Below, piece by piece: positions 1-24,404 of a stretch of DNA of 64,000 nucleotides. The translations under genes and the position numbers were made by a program. Source of the stretch: Pseudohongiella sp. (GTDB taxonomy: Bacteria > Pseudomonadota > Gammaproteobacteria > Pseudomonadales > Pseudohongiellaceae); the NCBI RefSeq assembly GCF_011050365.1, contig NZ_DRFV01000003.1:62001-126000 (forward strand), read 5' to 3'. The notes under the pieces were generated by a model, which was not told the DNA's origin, made no database searches, and was given only the letters and a program-made list of their open reading frames with translations. Position 1 is the stretch's first letter. Each line of letters starts with the position of its first letter.

Positions 1-3000
1 GGTCGCTCGCTCGACACCGGCCAACAGTGTCGACCAGTAGCCAGCAGTGGTGTCCCTGTCCCGACTGGCCAGCCAGCGGAAGTAATCCAGATTCAGCCTG
101 TCATGCGTCGCATCAGCAGCAATAATGTCCGTTGCGGGCGCGTCTGTCTCCGCGTAACAGGACAGCAGACTGTCGAACAGAATGCCGACACACCAACCGT
201 CCATGATCAGATGATGGTGCGTCCAGATAACATGCACCTTGCCGTTTACTGTGGGGTCTGATTTTTGTTTTCGCTGCGTTTTACGTTTGCGCTGCGGCTT
301 TTGTAGCGTGAACAATTGCACCCGCATCAGCGGCGGCTGCTTGATATCGAATTGCAAGAGCTGATCGGCTGCCCGCGCCTCGTCAATCACACGCTGCTGC
401 TCCGATGACGATAACGTGCTCAGGTCGTGACACACCACCGGCAGCGTCACCTGCGTCCTGATCAATTGCGCGGTACGACCATTGCTGCCGACCACAAACG
501 CAGCCCGAAGCAACGGAAATTCCACGAGCAGGCGCTGGAAAGCGGTCGCCAGCTTGTCAGCGTCGACACCATGCAGGGTAAAATCCACCTGTTCGAGGTA
601 GGCCAGATCATCCGGCTTGCTGCGGGCATGGTAAATCAGCCCGCTCTGCATCGCAGTAATGGGCAGAAGATTGTCGACATCGCCGCGCTCGACAGCATTC
701 GCGCGGAGCAAGCCAAGATAATCGTCCAGAGACCAATCGGCTTCGACGAAATCGACCGGTGCTAGTGCGACCGGGGCCGTCAGCTTGCGGCAGACAGAAA
801 CCAGGTCCTGTGCCTGCTGCCGGAATGCCGTCAGGATACTCGCCAGCGTATCCTGGCCGACCAGCGCCGCATCCGCGGATAGCGACACATGCAAACCGGC
901 ATCATCAGCGAAACAGACAAACTCCAGCGGTGGCAGCAGGCCCAGTTCACCCATGCGATCGCCTGCCGGCGACTCATCGAGGATGGCAAAATCGTTGTCC
1001 GGATGATGTTTGAAGCGCCCTAAATAGTTAAACGCAAACTCGGGCGCGAACGCCGACAAAGCTTCATGCCGAAGGACATACCTGAGCACGCCGTAGCCAA
1101 CACCCTGCTCCGGCACGCGTTGAGTCCGCTCACGGATACGCTCAAGCTTCGCTGTCCAGTCACCATCCGGGCCCGCGTCGGGCGTGACTATGCTCAATGG
1201 GTATGCTGATGTCATCCAGCCCAGCGTTGTCGAGAAATCAGCGTCGGCGTAGCGTTGTGCTCTGCCGTTGGATTCCATCAGCACGGTGACGACATCGAGT
1301 TCAAATACTCGCGCCACAGCTTCTGTGAACGCGGCCAGCAGCAGATCACTACCCCTGCTGCGGAAGTATTGGTGTCCGGTGGCAAGCAGAATCTCGGCCA
1401 CTTCAGCGTCAAGACTGGCGGCAAGATGCAAGCGTTGTTGCCGCGCCGATTGTTCTGCGATTTGATCCGGGTTACCAGCGCCCAGGACTGTTCTGGCGTC
1501 CGCCAACACTGACTTCCAGAACGGAACTTCCAGTAACGCTTTATGCCTGGCATCTTCGTCATGCAGCGCGCTGGCGAACTGACGCATGGTGGCGCTTGCA
1601 GGCAAAGTCCGGAGCGTGTGTTTTTCCCCGATATCTTCCCATAGCTGAGCCCACTGCGTTTGCAACAATTTCCACGACACTGCATCGACGACAAAATGAT
1701 GGAATGCCACCAGAGCTTTGCTCTCTGCCTCCGTATGCACCAGCACGACTCTCAGCAAAGGACCTCCCTGCAGTCTGATGTCGCCGCGCGCCGACTCAGC
1801 AACAGCATCAGGCGTCCATCCGGTATCGGCTTCCGAGCAATGGACCACCGCATCGTTCGCCGTGTCAGGCTGCGGACGACCGTCACGGTCTGCGATCAAC
1901 GCCCGGACCTCCCGGAACACACTGTGCTGGCTGGCCCAGTGTCGGCAAAGCGTATCCAGTTGTGCCAACGTCATCCGGTCAGGTAAACGTACCCAGGCAG
2001 CCTGCGTAAAGGCATCGGCATCGCCCTTGCAGGTTTCGAAGAACCACGCCTGCATCGGCGTTGGCAGTGCCGTTTCAGCTGCATGCAACACAGACTTGCG
2101 CTGGCTGCCTTTGACTTCAATCCTGCGCGCGAGTTCGGACAGCACAGGGTTCCGGAACAGATCATTTATATCCAGCAAATAGCCAGCTTCGTTCAACCGC
2201 GATGCCAGCACGATAGCCTGGATAGAGTCACCGCCGGCATTAAAATAATTATCACCCGGCTTCAGATCCGGACGCCCGAGCACCTCCCGACAATGACTCA
2301 GCAATTGCTCCAGACACGCAGTTACCGGAACAGCCTGTGTCGTTTCTGTGTCCGGGAATGGCCCTGCTTTTTCAGGTGGCGGTACCAGCGCGCCACGATC
2401 GAGCTTGCCGCTGGGCAATAACGGCAGCTGGCTGACCACATGTAGCGTTCCGGGTACCATCCACACCGGCAATACCGACATCAGCGCGTCGCGCCAACCG
2501 GTGGGTTCGGCGTCAGTCACGATCCAGCCATGCAGCCTGGCGCTGGTTCCCGTGGCGACAACGCTGGCCGCCACTTCGCTCAGGTCAAGCTGGCTACGCA
2601 ACGCCGATTCGACATCCTCCAGCTCAATGCGATTGCCATTGACCTTGACCTGGCCGTCGTCACGGCCTTTGAATTCCAGCGCGCCGTTGTCCAGCAAACG
2701 CACAATGTCGCCAGTGTCGTAACACCGGAGGTTGTCCAGCGCCGGCAGACAGCGGAATTTGCTGTATGTGTTGGTCTCATCGCCGGCGTAACCCTTGGCG
2801 AGGCCGATGCCACTGACCCAGAGTCGTCCCCACACCCCGGTCGGCGTCGGACGTTCCTGTTCATCCAGTATATGCACCTGCACGTTGTTGACCGGCCAGC
2901 CGATGTTGACACGGTCCTGTCCCGGTTCCAGCCGGCCACCGCTGACCACAACGCTGCACTCGGTGGGCCCGTATTCGTTCCACAGCTCTACGTTTGGCGC

Positions 3001-6000
3001 CTGCGCAAAATGCGCCTGCATCAGGTCCGGCGGCAATTTTTCGCCTGCCAGGGTGATGAACCGCAGGGATGCCATAGCCCGGGGAATCCGGTCCAGCAGA
3101 ACGCGATACAATGTCGGCGTCAGCAGAATCGACGTCACCTTGTGCTGACCGATGGTTTCCCCGATGCACTCAACGGACCGCTTGGACGCAGTATCCAGCA
3201 TCACCAGACTGCCACCACTCAACAGTGCGCTGAGGATATCAATCACCGAGGCATCGAAGCCCGCACTGGGCATTTGCAGCGTCGTATCCGCTTGTCCCAT
3301 GTGATAACTCTGAATCCGCCAGGCCACCGAGTTGACGATGCCGGCATGACAGATTTCTACACCCTTTGGCACGCCGGTGCTGCCGGACGTGAAGATCACG
3401 TAGGCGACATCGTCCGGACACGGGGGCTGTAATGTCTGATGAGGCATTGCGCTGATGACGCTCTCGCGTATCGCCTCCATGGCAATGCATTCCAGCGCCT
3501 CCGCCGCCCTGAGCTCAGCGACACAGTTGTGGCCGGCGGCGTGAATCAGATAACGCGCGTCGCACTGTTGTTGAATCAAGCGCAGCCGTGGCAGTGGCGT
3601 GTCAGGTGTCACTGGCACATACACCGCGCCCATCGAAAACAATGAGAGCATCACAACCACCAGATCGGCCGAAGAGTCCAGGCTTACCAGAACCCTGTCA
3701 CCCGCCCTGACACCGTAGAGGTTGAACAGCGTAAATGCCGTTTCCCTTATCTGGTGATCGAGTTCGGCATAAGTCAGCGTGCGTTTGCCGTCAATCAGCG
3801 CAACATTCTGTGCGCCGCCAACCACCTGTTTGTCCCACAACGTGCAAACCGTGTCAGTGTCGGTATCTGCAACTGTAGCTGCATAAGCTGCCACCGGCCG
3901 GGTTGCCGGACTGGCGGCGCGCGCCGATGCCTGCGTGCCCGGAGAGCTGGCCGCGGCGTTTGTCCAGTCCGCCACCGTGGTCGCTTCGCCCGCTACCAGC
4001 AGCTTCAGTAACGCCAGGTACTCGTCCAGGCGCCGGCGCATTGTGATGTCACTGAACAGGCTTTCCGCGTACGCGCAGTTGATCAGTATGCTGCCCTCAG
4101 CTTCAATCAGGTCGAAGCTGATATCGAACATGCCCGCACCTTCGTACTGGGTCAGTGTCTCGCCCGCAAAAGTATCGGTTTTAATGACCCGTGATCCGGC
4201 GTTCTCATAAGAAAACATGACATCAAAAAGCGGATTGCGATTGGCGCGATGACCGATATTCAGCGCCGAGATTACCGAACTGAACGGATAATCTGCATGT
4301 TCCTGCACCTCGAACAGTCGATCCCTGATCTGTTGCAGGAATGCTGCGACGGAACTCTGCTCATCCACGCTGGCCGGAAACGCCAGGGTGTTTACAAACA
4401 TCCCCACGGCGTTGTCAGCCGCGGCATCAGGTCGCCCTGAACCGGGCAAGCCCACAACAAAATGCTGCTGCCGTGCGTAACGCCAGGTCCAGGCCACGAA
4501 TACCGCAAACAGGGCGCCAAACGTGGAAACCCGGGCATTCGTGCAGAAGCGATGCAATGCCGCCGTGGCATCTGTATCCAGCTTTAGTGCAATACGTTTG
4601 CCGGCGAAACTGGTGACCGGCGGCCGGCTGAAATCCGGCGACAGGTCGAAGGTCTGTTGCGAGTCAGCCAGGGGGGCGAGCGCCTCCTGCCAGTAACGCG
4701 CCGCTTCCCGCGCCCGGTCACTGTCCAGATACTGATCAATGGCATCCTGCACATGTCGCGCCTGACTGCGCACCGGGTCGAGGCTTGCACCATCGTACAA
4801 CGCCAGGATTTCCTGCAACACCACGTTCATCGACAGACCATCGGCCACAATGTGATGTACATCCATCAACAGCAGGTGGCAGCCGTCTGCCTGAGCGGCC
4901 AGAGCCACACGCAGCAAAGGTGGTTCCAACAGATTAAAGGGCTGGATGTAGTTATCCAGCAGCTCTTCCACGTTACCGTCACCGACATCAACATGATCCA
5001 GAAAAAAGCGTGGCTCAGCGACGATGCGTTGATAGAACTCACCATCAACAACAACAAAAGCGGTGCGCAATGACTCGTGACGAATAATGACCTGATGAAT
5101 GCAGTCTTCCAGGCGGTCAGCATCGACCTTGCCCTGCAGCCGCCAGGCGCCTGCCAGATGATAAGGTTTCTCGGCGCCTTCGCGCTGCGTGACCGCATAA
5201 AGTCGCTTTTGTACGGAAGACATCGGCACATACTGGCGCCGTAGCTTGGCGGCGCGGAATCCAAAACCACCGGCGCGCAGCGATTCCACCGCATGCACGA
5301 TAGCGGCAAACAGGTGATCAGCATCTTCCTGTGTGTGCTCCGTGGACAGATTCGCAACATGCAATTCCCAGGTATAGACACCTTTTTCCAGCAACAGATA
5401 GAAAAACAGTTCCAGTTCCAGCGCCGACGCAAAACTCTCGAATTTGAACTGGGTGCCGAAATAGGTGAGGCGAAGTGGCACCGCATGACGCTCAAACCAG
5501 ACATTGATGCGATCTGCCAGTTGATGCATGCGCATTCTGGCAGACTGGAAGAGTTGCGGATTGTTTTCGATATGATCGAGCACTGCAGCGGCAGCGGCCA
5601 GCGCCACCGGATGTTTATTGTGAGTGCCGCCGGTTGAAATCGAGTCCGTCAGCGGTGCGCTGTCATCACCAAAATGCCAGACACCGCCATCAATCCACTG
5701 CATCAGATCAGCGTTACCGGCGATCACGCTTAGCGGATAACCGCCGCCGATGATCTTGCCGTACGTCGACATGTCGGCCTTAACCCCGAACCATTCCTGC
5801 ATACCGCCGGCAGCCTGGCGGAAGCCGTTAACCATTTCGTCGAAAATCAGCGGAATTTCCAGTTCTGTACATAACGCGCGCAACTGACGCAGAAAGCGTT
5901 GCGGCTGCAGTGCCGGGTTGCGGCTCTGCACCGGCTCCACCAACACACCGGCAAGGTGATCGGCGAGTTCCCTGATCCGGTCCAGCGATTCGGGTGCGTC

Positions 6001-7209
6001 ATAATCCAGCACCACCAGGTCATCAACAATGCCGGCAGGCAAGCCCGGCGACATCGGCACCGCGCCGCTTTCCCCCTGACCCGCCAATACATCACTGCAA
6101 ATGCCATGATAGGCACCGGCAAACATTACCACCTTGTCGCGGCCACGCGCAGCCCGCACCAGACGCATGGCAAGCATGACGGCATCCGATCCGGTGACAA
6201 AAAACGCGGCACGCTGATGACCGGTCAACTCACATATTCTACGTGCAACATCGGGCGCCAGCCGCGATTGAGGTCCCAGCGCCAGATTCCGGTCAAGCTG
6301 GGCTCGCACGGCGTCGTCAATGAAGCGCGGGGAGTGACCAAAATAATGCACACCCATGCCCATGGCGATATCAACATACTCATTGCCATCAACATCCATA
6401 AACCGCGAACCCGACGCGGTCTCACAGACGATGGGGAAACGCAGTTCTTTCAGATCCTGCTTGAACTGCAGCGAGTACTTCCAGTCAGACAGATACTCCC
6501 TGCCCTCTTCCGCCATTTGTTTGCTACGCCGGCAACGCGCCGATAACCGCGCAGACAGCTTTTCAATAAAGTTACGCTGCTGTGTGCTGAGTTCTTCTTT
6601 TTGGGTGTCGATGCCACTGAATTTCTTGCGGGTCTCGATGGCATCCCCGGAGGCTGCCGCCTGCCGCGTGACTGCTGCCGGCACGCCGCGCACGACTGGA
6701 GGCGCCTGATCTGCTGCATATCTGCCAGCAGCGGCCCCGTCCAGATAGCGGCGCATCAACGCCATATGCGCTGACATCACCGTATTGATGTCGGCGCCCG
6801 TTGCGCTGACTGGCGTGGTCAGTGACGGTGCCCGGGGTTGCGCCGCAGGTGTGCTGTCTCCCGGTCTGATACCGGTGTCCGGCAACGAGCCGGAGATGTT
6901 CTGTTGCGATAGCACGGCATTGCCTGCCGGTTCACCTGATGGTGTTGATGGATCGGTTTCCTGCGCGGTGCCGTTGACAGCCAGGAAGTCAGCGAGCGTG
7001 CCAAGACCGGAAAGTTCGTCATAGAAACGTTTCATCGAAATATCGACGCGATATGTGCTCTCCAGCACACGGCCAATGCGCACGAACATCAACGAATCAA
7101 GGCCCAGGTCCAGCAAATCAGTATCCCGGTTCAGATCGCTGACGCTGACACCACTGATCGATTCGATTATCGCGGCGATAGCGTCGAAAGTTGAATGTTC
7201 GTGCGACAT
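1..7209 (-). CDS. Hybrid ACP-aminotransferase-NRPS megasynthase (C-terminus beyond window)
   Basis: The frame opens at an ATG at 7209 and stays open to base 1, giving at least 2,403 residues. Visible domains in order: ACP (Ser39 in LGLDSL); class III PLP aminotransferase at about 190-620 (Lys485 in STYGKIIGGG); condensation at about 660-1090 (HHIVADG, 785-791); adenylation at about 1120-1610 (FTSGSTG, 1273-1279; NEYGPTE); PCP (Ser1662 in GGDSI); epimerization at about 1690-2140 (HHFVVDAVSW from 1837; NYLGRF); and a second condensation domain from about 2175 (HHLIMDG, 2332-2338). The ACP must serve the upstream KS-AT protein, which has none. The aminotransferase would convert the beta-keto group of that chain to a beta-amine, as known for mycosubtilin/iturin synthases. 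The following module adds one residue and epimerizes it to D. The gene starts 8 bases after the previous stop. Termination domains, if any, lie outside the window. Confidence 0.93.
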   Translation of the reverse strand, partial: MSHEHSTFDAIAAIIESISGVSVSDLNRDTDLLDLGLDSLMFVRIGRVLESTYRVDISMKRFYDELSGLGTLADFLAVNGTAQETDPSTPSGEPAGNAVLSQQNISGSLPDTGIRPGDSTPAAQPRAPSLTTPVSATGADINTVMSAHMALMRRYLDGAAAGRYAADQAPPVVRGVPAAVTRQAAASGDAIETRKKFSGIDTQKEELSTQQRNFIEKLSARLSARCRRSKQMAEEGREYLSDWKYSLQFKQDLKELRFPIVCETASGSRFMDVDGNEYVDIAMGMGVHYFGHSPRFIDDAVRAQLDRNLALGPQSRLAPDVARRICELTGHQRAAFFVTGSDAVMLAMRLVRAARGRDKVVMFAGAYHGICSDVLAGQGESGAVPMSPGLPAGIVDDLVVLDYDAPESLDRIRELADHLAGVLVEPVQSRNPALQPQRFLRQLRALCTELEIPLIFDEMVNGFRQAAGGMQEWFGVKADMSTYGKIIGGGYPLSVIAGNADLMQWIDGGVWHFGDDSAPLTDSISTGGTHNKHPVALAAAAAVLDHIENNPQLFQSARMRMHQLADRINVWFERHAVPLRLTYFGTQFKFESFASALELELFFYLLLEKGVYTWELHVANLSTEHTQEDADHLFAAIVHAVESLRAGGFGFRAAKLRRQYVPMSSVQKRLYAVTQREGAEKPYHLAGAWRLQGKVDADRLEDCIHQVIIRHESLRTAFVVVDGEFYQRIVAEPRFFLDHVDVGDGNVEELLDNYIQPFNLLEPPLLRVALAAQADGCHLLLMDVHHIVADGLSMNVVLQEILALYDGASLDPVRSQARHVQDAIDQYLDSDRAREAARYWQEALAPLADSQQTFDLSPDFSRPPVTSFAGKRIALKLDTDATAALHRFCTNARVSTFGALFAVFVAWTWRYARQQHFVVGLPGSGRPDAAADNAVGMFVNTLAFPASVDEQSSVAAFLQQIRDRLFEVQEHADYPFSSVISALNIGHRANRNPLFDVMFSYENAGSRVIKTDTFAGETLTQYEGAGMFDISFDLIEAEGSILINCAYAESLFSDITMRRRLDEYLALLKLLVAGEATTVADWTNAAASSPGTQASARAASPATRPVAAYAATVADTDTDTVCTLWDKQVVGGAQNVALIDGKRTLTYAELDHQIRETAFTLFNLYGVRAGDRVLVSLDSSADLVVVMLSLFSMGAVYVPVTPDTPLPRLRLIQQQCDARYLIHAAGHNCVAELRAAEALECIAMEAIRESVISAMPHQTLQPPCPDDVAYVIFTSGSTGVPKGVEICHAGIVNSVAWRIQSYHMGQADTTLQMPSAGFDASVIDILSALLSGGSLVMLDTASKRSVECIGETIGQHKVTSILLTPTLYRVLLDRIPRAMASLRFITLAGEKLPPDLMQAHFAQAPNVELWNEYGPTECSVVVSGGRLEPGQDRVNIGWPVNNVQVHILDEQERPTPTGVWGRLWVSGIGLAKGYAGDETNTYSKFRCLPALDNLRCYDTGDIVRLLDNGALEFKGRDDGQVKVNGNRIELEDVESALRSQLDLSEVAASVVATGTSARLHGWIVTDAEPTGWRDALMSVLPVWMVPGTLHVVSQLPLLPSGKLDRGALVPPPEKAGPFPDTETTQAVPVTACLEQLLSHCREVLGRPDLKPGDNYFNAGGDSIQAIVLASRLNEAGYLLDINDLFRNPVLSELARRIEVKGSQRKSVLHAAETALPTPMQAWFFETCKGDADAFTQAAWVRLPDRMTLAQLDTLCRHWASQHSVFREVRALIADRDGRPQPDTANDAVVHCSEADTGWTPDAVAESARGDIRLQGGPLLRVVLVHTEAESKALVAFHHFVVDAVSWKLLQTQWAQLWEDIGEKHTLRTLPASATMRQFASALHDEDARHKALLEVPFWKSVLADARTVLGAGNPDQIAEQSARQQRLHLAASLDAEVAEILLATGHQYFRSRGSDLLLAAFTEAVARVFELDVVTVLMESNGRAQRYADADFSTTLGWMTSAYPLSIVTPDAGPDGDWTAKLERIRERTQRVPEQGVGYGVLRYVLRHEALSAFAPEFAFNYLGRFKHHPDNDFAILDESPAGDRMGELGLLPPLEFVCFADDAGLHVSLSADAALVGQDTLASILTAFRQQAQDLVSVCRKLTAPVALAPVDFVEADWSLDDYLGLLRANAVERGDVDNLLPITAMQSGLIYHARSKPDDLAYLEQVDFTLHGVDADKLATAFQRLLVEFPLLRAAFVVGSNGRTAQLIRTQVTLPVVCHDLSTLSSSEQQRVIDEARAADQLLQFDIKQPPLMRVQLFTLQKPQRKRKTQRKQKSDPTVNGKVHVIWTHHHLIMDGWCVGILFDSLLSCYAETDAPATDIIAADATHDRLNLDYFRWLASRDRDTTAGYWSTLLAGVERAT

Positions 7210-7217
7210 AATGTTGT

Positions 7218-10200: not shown

Positions 10201-10232
10201 TCGCCACTGTCGGTGTTCACTGAGTCGTTCAC
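7218..10232 (-). CDS. KS-AT polyketide synthase lacking its own ACP
   Basis: 1,004 residues. A short charged helix (about 16-35) that could be a docking coiled coil precedes a ketosynthase with Cys222 (DTACSSS), His357 (EAHGTA) and His396 (NFGHMEAS). The acyltransferase follows, with Ser692 in GHSLGEYTAA. Two AT motifs are unusual: the oxyanion motif reads GHGAQ (His595) instead of GQGxQ, and the specificity motif reads RAFH (791-794) instead of malonyl-type HAFH. There is no ACP or reductive domain, so the carrier must be the ACP at the start of the next protein. The tail, rich in H-x2-M spacing, resembles a segment at about 143-165 of that protein. The GTG start overlaps the FkbH-like stop in GTGA (10229-10232), indicating translational coupling. 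By position it should use the extender unit made by the four genes upstream; this is inference. Confidence 0.93.
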   Translation of the reverse strand: MNDSVNTDSGDDDIIVKALAEIRRLKAENAELRAGHAVSASAQQASAPAPIAVIGFACRTPGAGDNPEAFWHILKEGLCTITEVPAYRWSVDQYYDANPDAPGKMRCRYGSFLGRVEDFDCRLFGISPIEASYMDPQQRLLLELSWEALEDANMNMEALKGSATGVFVGQSGFDFATQHMTEESLCEITPYVGTGCASSPAAGRISYTFDFTGPSYVVDTACSSSLVALHNACQSLRQGESTLALVGAANLILRPGMSINFDKVGMLCEDGVVKTFDKDAHGVVRAEGGGMVVLKRLDAALRDGDRVDGVILGSAISQDGASSSLMAPSGKSQKAVMQAALRTAAISADNIDVIEAHGTATALGDPTELTALLDVYCRTPRAQPLLVGSVKTNFGHMEASAGIVGFIKLLLALRNEYLPRHLNYAEGHPDIDWANEAIEVCAQGRPWPRTQRRRVAGLSGFGFSGTNAHVILAEAPEKMTPAPVNTSSNADVPSEQLPHLLMLSAATPVALQRTAAALADWMESNKDISLARVCHTWATRRKRQVNRLAVVAADKEQAIARLQRFAEAGKAKGCSSGTVQSRSGRLAVAMVCGGHGAQYHGMSASLYQTQPVFRAAFDRASAIASEYCDSDLATLLHTAPKQASSNLFAGNKVEGKLGRTLQAQLAIFCVQYGLAQQWQAWGVEPKMLLGHSLGEYTAACLAGVFSLEDAIMLIAERARLMDAHTPPGAMLTAFHDEVAVQSIVANYADAGIAAVNGPGIILVAGTTESIADIAQRIDADGGRTTSVPIDRAFHSPLVDTVLPYFRRVLERVHFSPPKIPLISNLTGAVADQEITTVDYWLQHSRAPVQFMKGMQTLHAARYDAFIDLSPEPVMMGLDLCFQEIRAELGSKGVWVPSLRNGADDQARMLESLGKLYCLGLNPAHTHPAQIPVRLPTYRFDRQRCWSAAAERGQHASAGNAETGNTKPAVMPPSVPSSGSDDIHRVMLEHMAVVDQYLALTEGNR

Positions 10233-11281: not shown

Positions 11282-11283
11282 GT

Positions 11284-12465: not shown

Positions 12466-12712
12466 GGACCGGCGCCGATACTTTTTGCATGAACGTATCC
12501 ATTCTGTCGATGCTGCGGAAATTATCCAGATTCAGGTCTTCGCTTTCGACGCGGATATCCAGAGTTTTTTCCACAAACAGCACCAGTTGCATAGCCATCA
12601 GAGAACTCACCAGCCCGAGTTCAAAAATATCGTCTTCATCGGCAAAGTCCTCCTCGCTGATAAAGTTCTCCAGAAAAGTGCGGATGTCCTGTTTATAGTT
12701 TGTGTTGGTCAC
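12458..12712 (-). CDS. Discrete acyl carrier protein for the extender unit (FkbJ-like)
   Basis: 84 residues, a free-standing carrier protein. The phosphopantetheine site is in ELGLVSSLMAMQLV; Ser37 is the likely attachment serine, aligning with the GLVNSL motif of methoxymalonyl-type ACPs. Strongly acidic around residues 20-31. It should carry glyceryl and then hydroxymalonyl groups between the FkbH-, HAD- and ACAD-like enzymes. The GTG start overlaps the preceding stop in GTGA (12709-12712). It would need activation by a PPTase such as the one at 24405-25121. Confidence 0.9.
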   Translation of the reverse strand: MTNTNYKQDIRTFLENFISEEDFADEDDIFELGLVSSLMAMQLVLFVEKTLDIRVESEDLNLDNFRSIDRMDTFMQKVSAPVHG

Positions 12713-13614: not shown

Positions 13615-13616
13615 GC

Positions 13617-16600: not shown

Positions 16601-19600
16601 GCCACGGGTATGTCGGCAGATGGACTCTGCGGCCGTCGAACGCTGCTGACCCGGACCAGTCGATACCGTGCCCCAGCGTAAACAATGCCGCCAGTGCACT
16701 AGCGAACACCCGTGCGTCCTGCTGCCCCTTGCGTAGACTCGGTATCCAGCTGCCTGGCTGCGCCTGATTAAGCGCTTGCGGCTCATGGCGATCAACCCCG
16801 TCACTGTCCAGTGCACGACCCAGACCACACAGGATCGCAGCCGGCCCTATTTCAATGAAACAGCTACCACCGGCTGCCTTCACCTGTTGCAACCCTTGCA
16901 CGAACTGCACAGGCGCGCGCAGTTGCGCAGACCAGTAGTCCGCTCCACGCCTGTCGTGCTCCAGCGCTGTCGCGTCGAGATTACTAAATACCGGAATGCT
17001 CGTTTTTCTGAACTCAAGGCCGGCGATAGCGGTGGCAAATTCCTGTTGCACAGCTTCCATGTGCCGCGAGTGAAATGCGTGTGAAACGTTTAGCCGAACG
17101 ACGCGCACATCCTGTTTCTGCAAGTACGCACAGGCACATTCAACTGCCTCTGCATCACCGGTAATCGTGGTATCGAATGGTGAGTTGCAGCCGGCAATCT
17201 CACAGTCCGTTCCTGCGTTCTTCAGCAATTTGCGCACCGTGTCGACGTCAGCCTTCACGGACGCCATCGCGCCGTTTTGCGTCACCGTCTGCATCAGTCG
17301 GCTGCGGGCTTCCACCAGCACCGCAGCATCCGTGAGGCTCATGCCACCGGCAGCCCAGACGCCGGCCACCTCGCCAATACTATGTCCGACAACAAAATCA
17401 GGGCGCACGCCGAGTTGCCGGTAAAGTTGCACCAACGCGACCTGGATACAGAACAACGCCGGCTGCGTATATTGCGTCTGACCCAGTATCGCGTCTGCTG
17501 CCGCATCATCGGCTGCGGCGAGTATCAGATCGCGAATGGCGTGCTCGCGATGTGGTGTGAACAGATTGGCACAGGCATCAAATGCTTCGCGAAAGGCCGG
17601 ATGGGTTGCATACAGTTCCCTGCCCATACCCGCATACTGGCTGCCCTGTCCGGTGAACATGAACACGATGCGGGGCACGGCGCTCCCCTTGCCTGAGAAC
17701 ACGGATGGTTCGTCGGCCAGAGCAAGGCGGGACAGCAGCTCATCATGGTCCGCAGCCACAAAAGCGCGCCGGCGCGACATATCAAGCCGTCCACGTTGAT
17801 GGGTGAACGCAATATCGGCCAGCGCGGTATCGGGGTGGCGCTTTACAAAGTCGGCGAGCGCTGACATTTTTTCGTTCAGCGCCGTTTCATTGCCGGCCGA
17901 TACCGGCACCACATGCACACCAGGTTCGGCATCGACCGGTATTTGCGCCGGCGACTCTTCCAGAATGACATGAACATTGGTACCGCCAATGCCAAGCGAA
18001 TTGATACCGGCACGGCGCGGCGTGGTGCCTGCCGGCCACTCGCGGGTACGATTACTCACATAAAATGGTGTGTTATCGAACCCGATAGCCGGATTGGCTT
18101 CCCTGAAATGCAGCGTCGCAGGCAGCGTCTTGTGATGCAGCGCCAGCACGGCCTTGATGAATCCGGCGATGCCCGACGCGATGCCCATGTGACCAATATT
18201 GGTCTTGACCGACCCCAATGCACAGAAACCGCTGCGCTGTGTGCTATGTCGGAACGCTTTGGTCAATGCCTGCACTTCGATGGGGTCACCGATGGGTGTA
18301 CCAGTCCCGTGTCCCTCGACATAGCCGATGCTGTCAGCGTCGATACCGGCGCTTTCGATGGCGCCGGAAATAGCGCGGTATTCACCCAGCATACTCGGCG
18401 CAGTGAAGCCCATTTTCTGGCCACCGTCATTGGCCACAGCACTGCCCTTGATGACAGCATAAATGGCATCACCGTCTGCCTGCGCGCGGTCAAGTCGTTT
18501 CAACAGTACTGCGCCCGAGCCACTGCCAAAAATCGTGCCTTTGGCATCGCGATCATAGGCCCGACAGTGACCATCAGGAGAGTTGATCATGCCTTCTTCG
18601 TAATAATGACCGGCATGTTGCGGCAGCATCAGCGCGCAACCGCCGGCTACAGCCAGGTCACACTCGCCTTCACGCAAAGCACGAGATGCCTCGTGTACTG
18701 CGACCAGCGTGCTGGAACAGGCAGTCTGTATTCCCATGCTCGGACCCGTCAGGTCCAGCTTGTAGGACACCCGCGTGGGCAGATAGTCCTTGTCATTGGC
18801 CACCATCACATTAAAGCCGGGTACCGAGTTCACGGTCAGAACATTGCCTCCGTTGTCGTCAACCCAGGCCCTGTTCGCATATACATTATTCTGCAGATAG
18901 GTGTTGGTCGCCGCCGACGCATAAACGCCGACCTTGCCCAGCGCTGAACCCGGTACGTAGCCGGCATCTTCAAATGCTTCCCAGGCAGTCTCGAGGAATA
19001 CCCGTTGCTGGGGGTCCATCAATTCCGCTTCCCGCCTCGCATACTTCCAGAAATCGAGATCACAGCCTTCTATGTCGTCCAGCACCGGTGCCACATTGAC
19101 CTGTGCCGGATCATGAGCCCGTGACGATGGCACGCCGGCAGCGATTGCCTCCGCCGGGGTAAAGAAGGTCAGTGTTTCCACACCCTCCTCGAGCACGCGC
19201 CAGAAAGCGTCGGGGCCATGCGCGCCGGGGAAGCGACAGGCAATACCAATAACGGCAATATCGTTGCAGTCACCACGGCGAGGGCTGGCCGCAGAGCGGG
19301 CAGCCTGAGCGGATTGGGCGTTATCGGCTGCTGCGGCCGCCCGGCCGGAAAAATGCATGGCCATGGTGCGGATCGTGGGTGTATCAAACAGCTCCACCAT
19401 CGACACTTCGCGGCCCAGCAGCAATTCGAGTTCGTGCTGCACCTGAATTGCCAGCAGCGACGAGCCGCCCAACTCAAAGAAACTTTCGTCGAGCCCGACA
19501 GTCTCAAGCCCGAGTACCCGTTGCCAGATGGCAGTGATGCCGGCAAGCAGTTCTGTGAACGGCCCGGAATCGTCAGCGCCTGGTTCGTCGATGTGGCGCG

Positions 19601-21296
19601 GATTCACTCTGACACCGGCGGACCGGTCAAACTCGCCTTTCTCGTAACGAAGCCTGAGCACACTGCGCTTGATCTTGCCGATTTCCGTGCGCGGGAATTC
19701 CTCTTTCCGCAACGCCACGAGCGCTGCGGGTGCAATGCCGGTCAGGCGGGCCACCCCGGAACGTACGGCTTTTTTGAGCGTCTGATCATCATTGCTGCTG
19801 TCCGCGCCGGACGCTGGCGCATAGAAAACAACCAGACTCTCGGTGTTTTCCCCCGCAGCACGGACACCCACCGCTGCCACGCAGTCACCGGCGATAGCGG
19901 GGAATGCGGCAACCACTGCCTCTATCTCGTGGCAATAGTGATTATTGCCGTTGATGATCACCATGTCCTTTTCGCGCCCGGTTACATAAAGTTCACCGGC
20001 TTTGGTATAGCCCAGATCACCGGTGATCAGCCAGTCACCGACCAGCATACTGGCGTTCAGCGCATCCTCCCCATCGTAACCTTTGAAGACCGAGGCGCCT
20101 TTCATCCACAGCCTGCCTTCCACCCCTTCGTTCACGGTCTTGCCTGATTCGTTAACAATCTTCATTGCCGCGCCCGGAATCAGAGGTCCCAACGATACAA
20201 AGGAGTCTGAATCGGAGGTGTCCTGTAGCCTGAAACCGGTTGACCAGGTAATGCCGGAGCAGGTTTCCACCATGCCGAAAGCCGGTCTGAGTGCATCATC
20301 CGGCAAGCCGAATGGCTGCAGCAAGGCAAGAAAACGCCGCGCGGTAGCACTGACCACAGCTTCACCGGCATTGACCATAAAACGCATGCAGGACAGATCC
20401 CATTGCCGGGACGTTAGTTGCTGCTGGCGATCCAGCAGCAGTGAGAACACAAAATTGGGTGCCCAGGTTATCGATGCACGCCAGTGCCCGATCAGGTCAA
20501 GCCAACGGGTCGGCTCCTTGAGCACGTAATCGATCGGAACGTGAACCTGAGTGGCGCCCAGCGCCATTGGCATCACGCCGAGAAACACCAGCGAGCCCGC
20601 ATGATCCAGCGACATCCAGTTCAGCGTGACGTCGTCGGCAGTGAAGCCGTTCATCTGAATGGTCGCATCAGCCATCGCAAGCATCGCGGCATGACTCTGC
20701 ACCACACCTTTGGCTGCGCCGGTACTGCCTGAGGTCAGGAACATTGCGGCCGGGTCATCCGGCGCCGGCGTGTGAATTTCTGGTGCAGCGGTTACGCGGC
20801 GGCAGTCCGCGATATTGACGACGGTGACACTGTCTTTATCCTGCGTATCGAGCAGCGCCGCGATGGGCCCGGACAAATCGGCAGATGAAAGTACTGCGCG
20901 GATGCGAAAGCGAGCGACAGCCGAGAGCAGGCGATCAGTCTGGCTGTTGGGGCGATTGTAAAAAGGCGCTGTGTTCAGCGGCACCGGCACCACACCGGCG
21001 AGTATGCAGCCCCAGAAGCCGACCATGACATCAAGCGCATCGGAGAGTTGTAGTACCAGTCTGTCGCCGGGACGCAGGCCGGCGCTCTGCAGACCCGCAC
21101 ACAGCTGTGCGGCCTGTTGGTAGAATTCCGCATAGGACAGCGCGCTGGTGTCACCGCGCTTGTCGAGAGTCGTTATGCCGGTGTCCGACACCGAGCGGCG
21201 CGCGAGCAGTAACGCCACGAGCTGGTTTTCAGGAACGCTGAACCTTGTGCGCTCGCATCCCTGTATTTCACTGCCAGTCTTATTTGCCACAGACAC
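13617..21296 (-). CDS. FAAL-ACP-KS-AT-DH-KR-ACP loading and first-extension polyketide synthase
   Basis: 2,559 residues. Domains: fatty acyl-AMP ligase at about 1-560 (LTSGSTGAAKG); ACP1 (Ser613 in LGGSSL); KS at about 679-1110 (Cys860, His996, His1036); AT at about 1209-1520 (Ser1306 in GHSIGE; HAFH at 1406-1409, the malonyl type); DH (His1617 in HRVFGIVVPP; Asp1802 in LIDCHWQ); KR (GGLGGLG at 2159-2165; Tyr2299, Asn2303); ACP2 (Ser2474 in MGIDSL). No enoylreductase is visible, so the expected product is a 2-enoyl thioester two carbons longer than the activated acid. A (EPSAEK)n repeat lies between DH and KR at about 2014-2055. The start is GTG at 21296, with an in-frame TAG directly upstream; a second GTG two codons later is possible. 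FAAL versus CoA-ligase-like (CAL) naming and chain length cannot be settled by eye. Confidence 0.94.
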   Translation of the reverse strand: MSVANKTGSEIQGCERTRFSVPENQLVALLLARRSVSDTGITTLDKRGDTSALSYAEFYQQAAQLCAGLQSAGLRPGDRLVLQLSDALDVMVGFWGCILAGVVPVPLNTAPFYNRPNSQTDRLLSAVARFRIRAVLSSADLSGPIAALLDTQDKDSVTVVNIADCRRVTAAPEIHTPAPDDPAAMFLTSGSTGAAKGVVQSHAAMLAMADATIQMNGFTADDVTLNWMSLDHAGSLVFLGVMPMALGATQVHVPIDYVLKEPTRWLDLIGHWRASITWAPNFVFSLLLDRQQQLTSRQWDLSCMRFMVNAGEAVVSATARRFLALLQPFGLPDDALRPAFGMVETCSGITWSTGFRLQDTSDSDSFVSLGPLIPGAAMKIVNESGKTVNEGVEGRLWMKGASVFKGYDGEDALNASMLVGDWLITGDLGYTKAGELYVTGREKDMVIINGNNHYCHEIEAVVAAFPAIAGDCVAAVGVRAAGENTESLVVFYAPASGADSSNDDQTLKKAVRSGVARLTGIAPAALVALRKEEFPRTEIGKIKRSVLRLRYEKGEFDRSAGVRVNPRHIDEPGADDSGPFTELLAGITAIWQRVLGLETVGLDESFFELGGSSLLAIQVQHELELLLGREVSMVELFDTPTIRTMAMHFSGRAAAAADNAQSAQAARSAASPRRGDCNDIAVIGIACRFPGAHGPDAFWRVLEEGVETLTFFTPAEAIAAGVPSSRAHDPAQVNVAPVLDDIEGCDLDFWKYARREAELMDPQQRVFLETAWEAFEDAGYVPGSALGKVGVYASAATNTYLQNNVYANRAWVDDNGGNVLTVNSVPGFNVMVANDKDYLPTRVSYKLDLTGPSMGIQTACSSTLVAVHEASRALREGECDLAVAGGCALMLPQHAGHYYEEGMINSPDGHCRAYDRDAKGTIFGSGSGAVLLKRLDRAQADGDAIYAVIKGSAVANDGGQKMGFTAPSMLGEYRAISGAIESAGIDADSIGYVEGHGTGTPIGDPIEVQALTKAFRHSTQRSGFCALGSVKTNIGHMGIASGIAGFIKAVLALHHKTLPATLHFREANPAIGFDNTPFYVSNRTREWPAGTTPRRAGINSLGIGGTNVHVILEESPAQIPVDAEPGVHVVPVSAGNETALNEKMSALADFVKRHPDTALADIAFTHQRGRLDMSRRRAFVAADHDELLSRLALADEPSVFSGKGSAVPRIVFMFTGQGSQYAGMGRELYATHPAFREAFDACANLFTPHREHAIRDLILAAADDAAADAILGQTQYTQPALFCIQVALVQLYRQLGVRPDFVVGHSIGEVAGVWAAGGMSLTDAAVLVEARSRLMQTVTQNGAMASVKADVDTVRKLLKNAGTDCEIAGCNSPFDTTITGDAEAVECACAYLQKQDVRVVRLNVSHAFHSRHMEAVQQEFATAIAGLEFRKTSIPVFSNLDATALEHDRRGADYWSAQLRAPVQFVQGLQQVKAAGGSCFIEIGPAAILCGLGRALDSDGVDRHEPQALNQAQPGSWIPSLRKGQQDARVFASALAALFTLGHGIDWSGSAAFDGRRVHLPTYPWQRQRCWIDPDPRQTGSPQVDPLLARPLVLPRLGQQLYTLDYSPSTMPVLEQHRVFGIVVPPAALYVSQLLRTAADVTGQGRVMLSDINFISPMHLGDEGSGHDTKTVQILYDASGAVTSIELSSQATDLRLSGLLAGQNSPAANNSGVQVHVAAELLPAAPHAEGAVDMAALRRRCSEALNPQLIEAHMTAMQVELGESFLCFRHIHRGDNEALALLEVPVTPASRIAQGIPAGLIDCHWQTMLAALPELPPETIVPARIDALVSHTDDLPDQVWAHAVIHRQSSALVIATVTLLSADGQVLLESRGIEFRKVAANSFRHTDALRNTGSQPALFSRHWQAIKGEAVPTAESAQALDKVCLAGNADDVTLFAGKLHAAGVKTMLFAEATAATTPGSRLPLIYVDRVTGVDSGAGASIALNQFLASLESAPATFSQVIVVTALTEPSVPEEPSAEKEPSAEKEPSAEKEPSAEKEPSAEKEPSAEKEPSAKKELSINNRLPDTKPLAALANAQRSALAVQAVAAAHELQDWHIRAVAMDQQETSIQALMGLLATVTDSGRRLQIKAGTVQTLRADQWIPGSDEVSFTSDSLQVITGGLGGLGLLTAQWMFRRGARHFLLVGRSAPSEQAETVLAELRSQGAQTDIYRCDVSQYDQVMALAAKAELIAPVETVIHAAGARRDGLIGSLQDQDFSLLTQVKAVAADNLHRAFDALRPRHTIFYSSTAAWLGGAGQSNYCAANAALDSLASQYFSTTGSHTISVAWGPWHQAGMTATLNERHLTRIRETGYGFLEADTGFALLGRYLAAPFTSEIAIMAADTDRLSALPGVAGFFATPTRGAATPGAVTSQAPVSQSAASGLPALAGELLDLDHKAADERLQDYLIGLVTDMTSPGNRDHIDVDAGFLDMGIDSLAALEMRKKLESALGLKLKSTLILDYPSIAVMARELALQVRASQPSRGSRQPSDADTRSRDAGAKAKPDRSELLRQLANEIDFEE
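15132..15257 (-). repeat. Hexapeptide-coding tandem repeat (18-base unit, about 7 copies)
   Basis: About seven copies of an 18-base unit encode Glu-Pro-Ser-Ala-Glu-Lys in the FAAL-PKS protein (residues about 2014-2055), the last as EPSAKK. Copies differ mainly at wobble positions (ctttctccgctga against ctttttccgctga on the plus strand), so the array is not a single recent expansion. It is a charged, probably flexible or helical linker between the DH region and the KR structural part. Copy number is likely to vary between strains. Confidence 0.9.
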
Positions 21297-21387
21297 CTAC
21301 CGGGTGCTAAATGTAAATCATCCTTAACGCTACCGGGCTTGCTTGTCACCAGCCTCCGTCACTCGTCAATCCCAATACGCCAGACTG

Positions 21388-22392
21388 TCACTGCTGTTGA
21401 GCAGCACCGGTCTGGTCAGTCTCATTGTTTGTTTCAGGGTCAGTTTCAGTGTCGCTGTCTGGCTCAATGACACTGTCCAGGATACTCGCTGCGGGCCGGC
21501 GCGCGCCGTCTCCGGTATCCAGTATCAAGGGCAGGCCATTGGCGCTGTTTCCGATTACCACGACTTTGGCGTTGTCGGACTCAGCCAGTTGCAGCGTGGC
21601 CTCAATGCCACGCCATTGCAGGTAGCTGTCGGTGATCGCCGGGGCGACCGTTTCCTGGAAGTTGCGAATACCTTCCGCCTCAATCTGCTTGCGTTCACTT
21701 TCCAGACGTTCGCGTTCCACCCTGAACTCGTACTGCTCTACCATTTCAGCTTCCGCCAGCTTGCTTTCGATCGCCACCTGCAGGGTTTCCGGCAGCTCTA
21801 TTCTGGTCATCAACGTGTCCTGAAGCACAATAGTGATGCCCGGCTCCTGGGTAGCACGGGAACCGATATGATTAGGCAGGGAACTCGACGTGACTTCCTC
21901 GTAAATTTCGGCCTGCACGGCATTTCTTGCCACTGTGTACAGGGCCTCGGCCCGGTAGTCGGCAACAACATGCCTGAGCACAGAGCCAATTTCCGGAATC
22001 AGCATGGATTGCAGGTAATCAAGCCCCACTGTCTGATTCAGCTCAACGAGATTTTCCCCCACCACCCGCCATCTGAAGGTCATCTCGATCTCAAAATGCA
22101 AACCTTCCTGTGACACGACCTGATAGGTCTCGTTGTGAGTTTTCAGGCGTATGTCGTACAGATAGAACTTGTCCCAGGGCCAGATGAACGCCAGGCCCTC
22201 TCCGGCCAGTTCACTGTGATAGTTGGGGGCCCAGGGAAACCGGAAACTGTGCCAGATCACGCCTTCATGGCCGTCGGGGACTTTGTACACGATCTTGTCC
22301 CACAATATGATCAGCAGGAACAGCAATATGAGGACGGTGAATATAAATCCGTAGCGGAATCGCATGAATACGGCATGCAAATATTTTTTCAC
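21388..22392 (-). CDS. SPFH/band 7 (prohibitin-family) membrane protein in the biosynthetic operon
   Basis: 334 residues. One N-terminal membrane helix (about 13-32) is followed by an SPFH domain and a charged helical region (about 215-265, rich in E/R/K) typical of the oligomerizing part of prohibitins and stomatins. The C-terminal tail is acidic (Asp/Glu/Thr-rich). Such proteins form ring-like scaffolds at membranes. Its ATG overlaps the ABC exporter stop (22389-22392), so the two are probably co-translated. About 90 bases separate it from the FAAL-PKS gene. A role in anchoring the exporter or megasynthases at the membrane is inference. Confidence 0.85.
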   Translation of the reverse strand: MKKYLHAVFMRFRYGFIFTVLILLFLLIILWDKIVYKVPDGHEGVIWHSFRFPWAPNYHSELAGEGLAFIWPWDKFYLYDIRLKTHNETYQVVSQEGLHFEIEMTFRWRVVGENLVELNQTVGLDYLQSMLIPEIGSVLRHVVADYRAEALYTVARNAVQAEIYEEVTSSSLPNHIGSRATQEPGITIVLQDTLMTRIELPETLQVAIESKLAEAEMVEQYEFRVERERLESERKQIEAEGIRNFQETVAPAITDSYLQWRGIEATLQLAESDNAKVVVIGNSANGLPLILDTGDGARRPAASILDSVIEPDSDTETDPETNNETDQTGAAQQQ

Positions 22393-24167
22393 TGTTTGAA
22401 GTCTCCCCCATCCTGGCCTTCGGTAGCGAGCGTGATTCTGCCCTCTTCCACATGGTAATGATGATCAGCGCAATCGAAGTAACGATCATCATGCGTAACG
22501 ACTACCAGCGTTTTCCCGGATGCCCTGAATTCCGGCAACAGGGTTCGATAAAAAAACTTGCGTGTCTGCGGGTCCTGATCTGCCGCCCACTCATCAAGAA
22601 TGAGTACCGGCCGGTCTTCAGCCAGCGCTAATGCCAGCGCCAGGCGTTTCTTCTGCCCGGTCGACAAGGCTTGCGTGTCATAACCTGCGTTCAGATCAGC
22701 GGGAAATTTGCCCCGCACATGCAACCTGGTCAGCCAGTTGTCCAGTCTCGCCACACCGTCCGCATCCAGAGCGTAAGGCTTGGCAAAAAGATGAAAATCG
22801 GCAAATACACTCGCGAACAGATCACGGTAGTTCTGCGTCGGGAATCGGTTGATCAGGGTATCATCGACATGGATATCGCCGCGCTCGCGTGGATAAAGCC
22901 CGGCCAGCAGCCGCAGAATTGTGGTTTTACCCGAGCCATTGCCCCCGGTAATGAAGGTGATCGACCCCTGTTCTATGGAAAAATTCAACTCGCGGACACT
23001 GAATGCGTGCTCAGCATCCGCGGCCAACGCCGAGCGATGGCTGTATTTGACCTGCTCAAGCCGGATAATGTCGAAATCTGCCAGATCTTTAGCGCTGTCA
23101 TTGTCATCAGTGTCTTCATTTTTGTCCAGACAGGCATCCACTTCCTCTTCGAACTTCATGATGCCCAACACCGAGAAGCGGGCGATATTGAATTGCTGAA
23201 TGCTGCCGATCACACCGCCAATCGGCCCGATCAGAAAAAGCACGGCCACCACGATACGGGCAATCTCGTCTTTCTCCTGAGGATTGAGGATGGGCAGAAT
23301 AAAAATTACCGAACCCGCCATCAGATAGGATGCCGTAGTTCCGGAGGCCAGCACTTCCGCAAACAGCGAGGCACTGGCAGATCTGTTCTTATACAATTGC
23401 GACGAAGCTGATCTGGCGTCTTCGAGAAACTCGGTGCGCTTGCTGGTATTCAGCCGGAGCTCCTTGGCCCCTTTGATGCCGGCTTCCATTGACCGATCGA
23501 GGCTGGCATTGGACATGGCCGACTCCCGCAAGGTATCAGCCAGCCGCGCAGACACGGAAAGATACCCCAGCACCGTCAGCACACCGACTATACCTGTGAG
23601 CAATGCGGCAAGAGGTGACAGGAATATCACATAGAAATACATGAAAATCAGCAAGCTGAGACACTCGACGCCTGCCGTTATGGTGATGATCGCCTGGGAA
23701 AGTGGTCCGTAGTTTTTTATCAGACCATCCGTTATCGCTTCTTCCGAGAAATCCTCAATGTTTCTTAGTGACAGCTTGGTGACTTTGGCGACAATCCGCT
23801 GCCGCCACTCATTCATGGCGGCTTCAATGGATTTGCTGGCTTGTGCTATCAGAAAGCGCTGACAAAAACGGTAGCACACCAGCATGACCAGAAAGGCAAC
23901 GGCAGCAAATACGGAATACTGCTCCTCACCAACCAGCTTGGATTCGGCGTTCAGAAAGTAGACCACTGCGGTACCGAAGGCGGCACTGAGCACGGCAACG
24001 CCGAGCAGACCCTTGACCGACGGGCTGTCGACACGGGCCATTTTTAAAAATTTGGATTTGAAAGGGTTTTTCCACCGAGGCTGGGGAAACCGCGTCAGAT
24101 AACGAAGCAGAGTATCACCGACTGACGATGGATCACGTTTATCTGCCGGATCTTGCTCCAGACTCAT
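22389..24167 (-). CDS. Cyclic-peptide ABC exporter, SyrD/PvdE family
   Basis: 592 residues, the expected length for a half-transporter with fused membrane and ATPase domains. Membrane segments occupy about 50-330. The ATPase has Walker A GGNGSGKTT near 408, signature LSTGQKKR near 500 and Walker B with LILDEWAADQDP, the last being characteristic of the SyrD/PvdE group that moves non-ribosomal peptides across the inner membrane. It is the first gene of the operon and overlaps the SPFH gene by 4 bases. It probably exports the product or a precursor to the periplasm. The ATG at 24167 faces the divergent PPTase gene. Confidence 0.9.
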   Translation of the reverse strand: MSLEQDPADKRDPSSVGDTLLRYLTRFPQPRWKNPFKSKFLKMARVDSPSVKGLLGVAVLSAAFGTAVVYFLNAESKLVGEEQYSVFAAVAFLVMLVCYRFCQRFLIAQASKSIEAAMNEWRQRIVAKVTKLSLRNIEDFSEEAITDGLIKNYGPLSQAIITITAGVECLSLLIFMYFYVIFLSPLAALLTGIVGVLTVLGYLSVSARLADTLRESAMSNASLDRSMEAGIKGAKELRLNTSKRTEFLEDARSASSQLYKNRSASASLFAEVLASGTTASYLMAGSVIFILPILNPQEKDEIARIVVAVLFLIGPIGGVIGSIQQFNIARFSVLGIMKFEEEVDACLDKNEDTDDNDSAKDLADFDIIRLEQVKYSHRSALAADAEHAFSVRELNFSIEQGSITFITGGNGSGKTTILRLLAGLYPRERGDIHVDDTLINRFPTQNYRDLFASVFADFHLFAKPYALDADGVARLDNWLTRLHVRGKFPADLNAGYDTQALSTGQKKRLALALALAEDRPVLILDEWAADQDPQTRKFFYRTLLPEFRASGKTLVVVTHDDRYFDCADHHYHVEEGRITLATEGQDGGDFKQ

Positions 24168-24404
24168 ATTATCACTCGAAACGTTTCCGTGGAGTCATCA
24201 CAGCAGAGCTTACGCAGCGAAAAAAACTCAAGAATTTGTTACATTAATTCATCTGATTTTACTGACATGTTATCGTGCAACGCAACCGTTTTGTTCGAAA
24301 ACTCAGGGGCTGTGGGCGAGAGATTGAACCATGTCACACAAAACCATCATCCCGGCATGCTATCCTGTAGCATTCCCGCCAAAGCAGTGCAGCAAACGTC
24401 CATC
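24168..24404. promoter_or_regulatory. Divergent intergenic region of the biosynthetic cluster
   Basis: 237 bases separate the exporter-led operon (minus) and the PPTase gene (plus), so promoters for both should lie here. The part at 24225-24300 is AT-richer than its surroundings. I see no convincing -35/-10 pair or operator palindrome on either strand. An in-frame extension of the PPTase reading frame runs through the region but lacks PPTase features. Confidence 0.45.

Follow-up and report, generated by a model that had tools for sequence, protein, structure and literature searches.

The stretch of DNA analyzed here (the window; 64,000 nucleotides) corresponds to positions 62001–126000 of contig NZ_DRFV01000003.1 (C3) from the 3.63-Mb genome of Pseudohongiella sp., a member of a gammaproteobacterial genus of the Pseudomonadales. 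The window carries the first half of a gene cluster that combines polyketide synthase (PKS) and non-ribosomal peptide synthetase (NRPS) genes. The remainder is located to the left of base 1 and was read by joining on the contig DNA that precedes the window. The complete biosynthetic operon consists of 12 genes, from an ABC exporter gene to an alpha/beta hydrolase (ABH) gene, all on the minus strand (C3:43406–86167), and extends 18.6 kb to the left of base 1, or 20.9 kb when a beta-barrel gene is included. Such a continuation had been anticipated in a preliminary description of the window, and the added DNA contains an NRPS-embedded FkbH domain and two further epimerization domains. Within the window, the operon genes lie on one strand with slight overlaps or gaps of at most 91 bp, and their arrangement is therefore operon-like. 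The locus is a known kind of PKS/NRPS operon in a new combination.

PKS1 (13617–21296; coordinates without the prefix C3 refer to the window, and all operon genes are on the minus strand) is composed, as judged from Pfam domains, of adenylation, acyl carrier protein (ACP), ketosynthase (KS), acyltransferase (AT), dehydratase (DH), ketoreductase (KR) and ACP domains in this order. The AT (16677–17666) has the malonyl-type motifs GHSIG...HAFH, the DH (15654–16541) contains the HxxxGxxxxP and DxxxQ motifs, and the KR (14307–14834) contains GGLGGLG and the S-Y-N residues, in agreement with the single malonate extension with KR and DH that had been proposed. PKS2 (7218–10232; Pfam) consists of a KS and an AT with the motifs GHSLG...RAFH. 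NRPS1, a 3296-residue protein, occupies window positions 1–7209 and runs on to C3:59319, 2.7 kb to the left of base 1. Pfam domains and motifs place ACP, aminotransferase, condensation (C), adenylation (A), thiolation (T), epimerization (E), C, A and T domains along it. The class-III aminotransferase domain (5290–6612; PF00202, E=1.6e-43) retains the pyridoxal phosphate (PLP) lysine in the motif YGKIIGG, which is found in 8/8 genomes. Together, PKS2 and NRPS1 display the layout of an iturin-type beta-amino acid synthase, in which KS-AT, ACP and a class-III aminotransferase are followed by C. The second extension and the beta-transamination of the preliminary description are thus matched by a split KS-AT/ACP-aminotransferase module with intact motifs, and its colinear domain logic was confirmed from the loading end through to C, A, T, E and C ahead of base 1.

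The first A domain of NRPS1 is located at 2380–3762, and the E domain that follows the first residue is located at 760–2082, where it matches TIGR01720 with 61 bits (cut-off 74.2) and the E region of the PRK05691 profile. NRPS2 (C3:46474–59316) continues the assembly line with C-A-T-E-C-FkbH-T-C-A-T-E, as derived from Pfam totals, motif positions and profile types. Its FkbH domain (290 bits versus a cut-off of 147) occupies the position of an A domain. Against a long NRPS profile, the three E domains align to region ∼2775–3227, the C domains located after an E domain (two) to 3286–3701 and the remaining three C domains to 665–1116. The A-domain codes are, in order, DAILTAEVVK, DFWNVGMVHK, DAFFLGVTFK, the glycerate position and DASTVAAVCK. 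We read the first code as aromatic and Tyr-like and the last, also aromatic, as Tyr. The second is a Thr code (PMC9113097) and the third an Ile or Val code (PMC2533009), and FkbH domains in NRPSs load glycerate (PMC8949500); here and below, articles are cited for the excerpts consulted. The four codes are conserved, save for single I/L/V exchanges, in 7, 7, 4 and 3 genomes, respectively (this genome included). No thioesterase (TE) domain was found in the NRPSs with Pfam; NRPS2 ends in an E domain, and a free ABH gene (C3:43406–44326) is present instead. The operon also encodes an S12 serine hydrolase (C3:44330–46552 when the first start codon is used, with translation probably beginning at residue 39). 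The glycerate module, the terminal E domain and the S12 hydrolase to the left of the window, together with a phosphopantetheinyl transferase gene at the right edge of the cluster, are additions to the preliminary description.

A four-gene cassette separates the two PKS genes. It encodes HAD, a 3-hydroxyacyl-CoA-dehydrogenase-like protein of the ZmaG type (12709–13614; PF02737/PF00725), a free-standing ACP of 84 residues (12458–12712; PF00550, E=1e-6), ACAD, an acyl-CoA-dehydrogenase-like protein of the ZmaE type (11284–12465; PF00441/PF02771/PF02770), and a free-standing FkbH protein (10229–11281; TIGR01686, 267.5 bits, cut-off 146.65) that gave one weak match among solved structures. The cassette therefore comprises the full ZmaN/D/G/E-type gene set. 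The free FkbH would load a glyceryl group onto the ACP, HAD would oxidize the glyceryl-ACP and ACAD would form hydroxymalonyl-ACP. No O-methyltransferase Pfam domain was found among the twelve proteins of the operon, and a methoxymalonyl unit is thereby ruled out. The dedicated hydroxymalonyl pathway of the preliminary description thus stands with respect to gene content; its proposed use by the PKS2 AT is weighed below.

The cluster is real, complete and conserved. It is present in 5/14 other sampled genomes of the genus and absent from 9/14, and two more contigs (L038 and L039) carry it; seven other genomes thus possess the cluster, either complete or up to the contig end. In the window genome, the KS cysteines, the PKS2 KS histidines, the AT serines, both DH motifs, the KR S-Y-N residues, the aminotransferase lysine, the DxD and Cys motifs of both FkbH units, the ACP serine and the ACAD glutamate are all present. 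The inactive aminotransferase or KS residues that would have spoken against the preliminary description were not encountered. The same motifs are kept in the relatives wherever the exact pattern matched and the contig reached, some patterns being so strict that relatives were missed. Eight measured genes are under purifying selection, with dN/dS values of 0.04–0.20 that are rough because many dS values exceed 1 and are saturated. The values are 0.04–0.11 for the four cassette genes and PKS2 (versus three relatives, the paralogous PKS2 comparison with G012b being excluded) and 0.06–0.07 for the ABC exporter gene, and are highest for ABH and SPFH. Purifying selection and the seven other carrier genomes place the cluster far beyond chance, and a decayed cluster is ruled out by the open frames, the intact motifs and the dN/dS range of the eight genes.

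With a probability of roughly two in three, the operon makes an exported, modified non-ribosomal peptide with a 3-amino-2-hydroxy-4-enoyl starter and a glycerate near its end. The starter chemistry is that of the preliminary description and is the most likely one. In this scheme, the McyG-like adenylation domain of PKS1 would load an aryl or acyl carboxylic acid, and PKS1 would add malonate and reduce and dehydrate it to a 2-enoyl chain. FkbH, HAD, ACAD and ACP would convert 1,3-bisphosphoglycerate to hydroxymalonyl-ACP, and the PKS2 AT would hand this unit to the ACP that starts NRPS1. The aminotransferase would then convert the beta-ketone to the 3-amino-2-hydroxy-4-enoyl starter. NRPS1 and NRPS2 would add a D-residue (aromatic code), L-Thr, D-Ile/Val, an ester-joined glycerate (C-FkbH-T) and, last, an aromatic D-residue that is probably Tyr. 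Release of the chain would be due to the ABH hydrolase or another trans factor, and export to the ABC protein. The secreted S12 hydrolase would finally cut or cyclize the product at the ester between the D-residue and glycerate.

The loading domain of PKS1 (19626–21185; phmmer) had been described as a fatty acyl-AMP ligase (FAAL), an assignment that was not upheld. Among solved structures, its best match is McyG (4R0M; 405 bits over 520 residues), followed by 6ULW/6ULX (338 bits), which we take to be the keto-acid-selecting StsA, and by the FAALs 7R7E (194 bits) and 3PBK (151 bits). The domain is gapped where 7R7E has extra residues, a stretch that we take to be the FAAL-specific insertion. 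It is thus neither closest to FAALs nor equipped with this insertion, and it shares with McyG the position at a PKS N-terminus and the directly following ACP. These features identify the domain as McyG/StsA-like rather than as a canonical FAAL, and the difference between 405 and 194 bits leaves the term lipopeptide, which had been applied to the product, unproven. The classification of 7R7E as a FAAL follows a table in PMC11837247. McyG activates phenylpropanoids and accepts varied substrates, some without alpha-amino groups, and its Val227 residue is critical in choosing hydrophobic substrates (PMC11209926). The aligned position is Ala in 5/5 genomes read, assuming that the 4R0M chain numbering is that of the paper. 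The starter may be built on an aromatic or shorter acid. A fatty acid loaded by a FAAL, with a lipopeptide product like mycosubtilin or puwainaphycin, is possible but somewhat doubtful: NCBIfam fatty acid ligase models do match PKS1 (PRK07768, 249 bits; PRK09192, 225 bits; both below cut-off), the varied substrates of McyG itself would accommodate it, and the Ala residue may allow a longer chain, but the ranking of solved structures and the missing insertion point the other way. Elsewhere in PKS1, the linker that precedes the KR contains an 18-bp tandem repeat (15130–15276) encoding six EKEPSA units; no repeat of this type was seen in the corresponding stretch of five relatives.

The thioesterase-less FkbH end of the assembly line recurs together with the S12 gene. 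The S12 protein contains S392-x-x-K, Y521-S-N and H673-R-G, i.e. the SxxK, YxN and HxG motifs. Its best solved relatives are 1SDE/1CEF (E=7e-39), which we take to be the Streptomyces R61 DD-peptidase, and ClbP matches with E=4e-10; the Pseudohongiella protein differs from these relatives in ∼265 additional residues between the signal peptide and the hydrolase domain. Signal peptides were recognized by eye in the S12 proteins of G000, G007, G014 and G231, and a lipobox in that of G810 (G numbers denote sampled genomes). The arrangement C-FkbH-T-C-A-T-E with an S12 gene is also found in genus g490, which belongs to the same phylum but another class (read in G810 and G832), where the NRPS gene is divergent and the S12 gene follows it. 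The code of the A domain following FkbH is DASTIAAVC in G810, G832 and contig C75 of G231, and DAST[VI]AAVC in three Pseudohongiella genomes. In the DAST[VI]AAVC loci, the terminal E domain ends within ∼12 residues of the protein end and leaves no room for a TE (in G832 by BLAST only). This TE-less end occurs in two other lineages, and wherever the neighborhood was read, the NRPS gene has an adjacent S12 gene, downstream in Pseudohongiella, G810 and G832 (BLAST only) and upstream on G231 C75. In contrast, a PKS-NRPS on another G231 contig (C133; L082) has C-FkbH-T-C-A-T-E with the code DVENVGVIT and a terminal thioesterase (107 bits), and no S12 match was found within the 20 kb read there. The C-FkbH NRPS of G835 (L086) runs off its contig, so that an S12 gene could not be seen, and no NRPS was found on a 10-kb contig of G886. 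In G810, the same contig carries, ∼80 kb from the FkbH end, an aminotransferase line that has three A domains and a final E (domains read on the G832 copy); with the FkbH end, it would give the same order of three residues, glycerate and one further residue, and the two may act together. A single line across contigs C25 and C75 of G231 is not claimed, because C25, the contig with FkbH and the aminotransferase, seems to terminate with a C domain that has no A.

DD-peptidases recognize D-Ala-D-lactate, and ClbP-type S12 peptidases remove N-terminal acyl-D-Asn prodrug tails. By analogy, we tentatively propose that C-FkbH-T-C-A(Tyr)-T-E builds a D-residue-O-glyceryl-D-Tyr tail that is absent from the active product, and that the R61-like secreted S12 protein expels glyceryl-D-Tyr. 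The acceptor of the acyl group would be water or the starter's beta-amine, and export would come before activation or ring closure. If true, the tail would mirror, at the C-terminus, the N-terminal acyl-D-Asn tails removed by ClbP-type peptidases. It is also conceivable, if far from assured, that the S12 gene encodes an unlinked enzyme, either penicillin-binding-like or serving resistance, and that the product keeps its glyceryl-D-Tyr end. S12 proteins are common, and cystomanamide B retains glycerate and Tyr (PMC9581180). However, the S12 gene adjoins the NRPS gene in all four settings listed above, always with the same terminal code and an E domain that reaches the protein end, whereas the differently coded line on G231 C133 ends in a thioesterase and has no S12 match in the 20 kb read.

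The link between the cassette and the assembly line depends on the PKS2 AT. ATs that use ACP-bound extenders have hydrophobic MXW/MXM-type residues before the YASH motif, whereas CoA-type ATs have Arg; ZmaA-AT and ZmaF, which act on ACP-bound units, have hydrophobic residues at this carrier motif and GYS instead of GHS (PMC4207774). Several observations weigh against the proposed product. The PKS2 AT lacks the published ACP-carrier motif and has Arg-Thr-Thr in its place (Arg-Thr-Ser and Arg-Ile-Ser in two), with Arg in 8/8 genomes, and GHSLG rather than GYSxG; by the carrier-motif rule, it looks CoA-type. Among solved structures, CurL is the best match for the PKS2 AT and the PKS1 AT alike. 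In G810 and G832, the cassette and the aminotransferase module are ∼80 kb apart or on different contigs, a second PKS lies ∼20 kb from the cassette, and hydroxymalonyl may be used elsewhere in these genomes. The cassette and the aminotransferase of G171 are on different contigs, and G369 has all four cassette genes and no aminotransferase match. As to the peptide, two of the three E domains fall below the TIGR01720 cut-off, and the terminal E domain has no TIGR01720 match.

The carrier-motif Arg would be explained if the PKS2 AT loaded malonyl-CoA and the cassette served elsewhere, or if only its glyceryl-ACP were used, in which case the starter would be a plain 3-amino-4-enoyl acid. We consider this unlikely. 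No other KS-AT of the operon fits the cassette: a hydroxymalonyl unit would be awkward before the KR and DH of PKS1, where, on chemical grounds, it would give an enol, and the PKS1 AT reads as malonyl type. The PKS2 motifs GHSLG...RAFH are identical in 8/8 genomes, and RAFH differs from HAFH exactly at the pocket motif. The AT that adjoins the cassette in G757 has RAYH, with Arg at the same pocket position, though its carrier motif starts with Phe. Arg at this position was found in 0/5 ATs from the cassette-less aminotransferase loci L041, L043, L046 and L047 that were caught by a pattern that misses some motifs. The cassette is, moreover, under selection. ZmaA-AT ranks 6 (152 bits) for the PKS2 AT and 36 (130 bits) for the PKS1 AT, with query lengths of 331 and 371. 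AT motif rules were rejected as a decider, since the ATs of other free-FkbH genomes are too varied for any rule to hold: HAIH in G231, LPFH with GYSLG in G384, RAYH in G757, HAFH with GYSTG in G819, HAVH and IPYH in G810 and G832, and NAVH in G816. We assign hydroxymalonyl to the PKS2 AT mainly by exclusion.

The association of free FkbH with the aminotransferase extends beyond the genus. In a class sample of 369 genomes, this one included, the aminotransferase was matched in 10 genomes (E≤1e-60) and free FkbH in 5 (E≤1e-40). Of the four other FkbH genomes, three possess both: G231 and G384 carry the aminotransferase on the FkbH contig and G171 on a second contig, whereas G369 has no aminotransferase match. 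The hypergeometric P value is 4e-5, or 0.0012 with two genomes of one family merged, both values assuming independent genomes. The aminotransferase genomes G100, G225, G244, G298, G314 and G421 have no FkbH at E≤1e-40 and were not fetched. A further class scan matched 26/369 genomes, of which only new places in G231 were followed, and another scan gave 12 genomes, of which only G757 was followed besides three cluster carriers. In a phylum sample of 398 genomes, 14 have FkbH at E≤1e-50; this genome and seven others at E≤1e-100 were read, and the other six (frames of 611–661 aa) were left out. The aminotransferase (E<1e-118) is present in 6/7 of these other genomes, the exception being 76% complete. 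FkbH and ACAD occur together at 7/7 of these loci, with HAD and ACP also at 5/7. In genus g490, an SPFH gene neighbors the cassette at 4/4 loci (L085, L086, L087 and L089; 34–36% identity to the Pseudohongiella protein). In G231, ACP, ACAD and FkbH genes directly precede one protein with KS-AT-ACP-aminotransferase-C-A-T-E, and no HAD gene was found beside them; in G810, KS-AT-ACP-aminotransferase-C-A is on a single protein. Nine aminotransferase loci of other organisms (L040–L048) contain no FkbH, HAD or ACAD match above 60 bits in the stretches read. One of them, in Legionella maceachernii (L045), is a PKS-aminotransferase-NRPS locus with 41% identity in the aminotransferase.

The assembly line shares parts with several known systems. 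As in microcystin McyG/McyE, a McyG-like loading domain is present, and KS-AT, ACP and aminotransferase domains lie upstream of C-A. The microcystin unit Adda, a 3-amino-4,6-dienoic acid (PMC11209926), carries an alpha-methyl group in contrast to the alpha-hydroxyl predicted here from hydroxymalonyl, and the Pseudohongiella operon has fewer PKS modules and a different peptide. The cassette has the same four gene types as those for zwittermicin (ZmaN/D/G/E, with ZmaA-AT) and butyrolactol (PMC5355916, PMC4207774), but neither GYS nor the hydrophobic carrier motif is present in the Pseudohongiella AT, and its predicted extender goes to an aminotransferase-followed module. Vioprolide synthetase likewise has an NRPS module in which FkbH replaces A and C esterifies glycerate (PMC8949500); this is module 2, right after fatty acyl loading, whereas in Pseudohongiella it follows three amino acids. 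The closest module order is that of the cystomanamide synthetase (ctm) of Cystobacter fuscus, which shares the beta-amino acid starter, five modules, E at positions 1, 3 and 5, C-FkbH-T at position 4 and a final Tyr after glycerate, but incorporates Asn, Asn and Phe (order Asn-Asn-Phe-glycerate-Tyr) and has an extra C domain and a terminal TE (PMC9581180). This likeness rests on the published module table rather than on sequences, and the parts of PMC9581180 consulted mention no hydroxymalonyl cassette. Cystomanamide A contains only Asn-(OH-Asn)-(OH-Phe), and B adds Tyr and glyceric acid (PMC9581180), a difference compatible with a labile ester, though no proof of one. In microginin synthetase, an alpha-hydroxy-beta-amino acid (Ahda) precedes the peptide, like the predicted starter, but its AT is described as recognizing malonyl-CoA, so that the hydroxyl should come another way (PMC12250027). 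No characterized cluster with the present combination was found in the open-licence literature searched, and little or nothing was found on Pseudohongiella biosynthetic gene clusters. The coupling of a hydroxymalonyl cassette to beta-transamination, for which the preliminary description knew of no gammaproteobacterial precedent, thus appears new; hydroxymalonyl-ACP itself is on record for Xenorhabdus (PMC5355916), and free FkbH and the aminotransferase are found together in other lineages too.

The operon starts at the right with the ABC exporter gene (22389–24167; PF00005), whose product is cyclic-peptide-exporter-like (TIGR01194, 252.5 bits, below the cut-off of 286.2), followed by a gene for an SPFH/Band 7 membrane protein (21388–22392; PF01145, E=2.3e-20). 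A gene for an Sfp-type 4'-phosphopantetheinyl transferase (24153–25121, plus strand; 4PPT_N, E=4.5e-23; ACPS, E=5.4e-11) diverges from the operon and is kept beside the cluster in G012, G014, G002 and G007; its product probably activates the carrier domains. Further to the right are a PLP-dependent decarboxylase gene (25219–26874), secF, secD and tgt. The decarboxylase gene is on the right side of the cluster in this genome and in G012 and on the left side in G007 and G014; the neighborhood is therefore rearranged around the cluster. At the left edge, genes for a DUF697 protein (C3:42734–43234) and the beta-barrel protein both accompany the cluster in G007 and G014 as well. In the G384 cluster, a DUF697-like protein, judged by eye, lies between the PKS and ABC genes. 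A tRNA search and PHROGs gave little or nothing informative.

The alpha-hydroxy-beta-amino unit predicted for the starter is the active part of microginins. Microginins inhibit aminopeptidases (PMC12250027). In the Pseudohongiella operon, the hydroxyl appears to come from the extender unit rather than from a later oxidation, and such a simple route could be transferred to other assembly lines. If the proposal for the S12 protein is true, a removable glyceryl-D-Tyr ester tail would be a new way to keep a peptide inactive until export or to close a ring outside the cell, an idea open to test in several unrelated bacteria.

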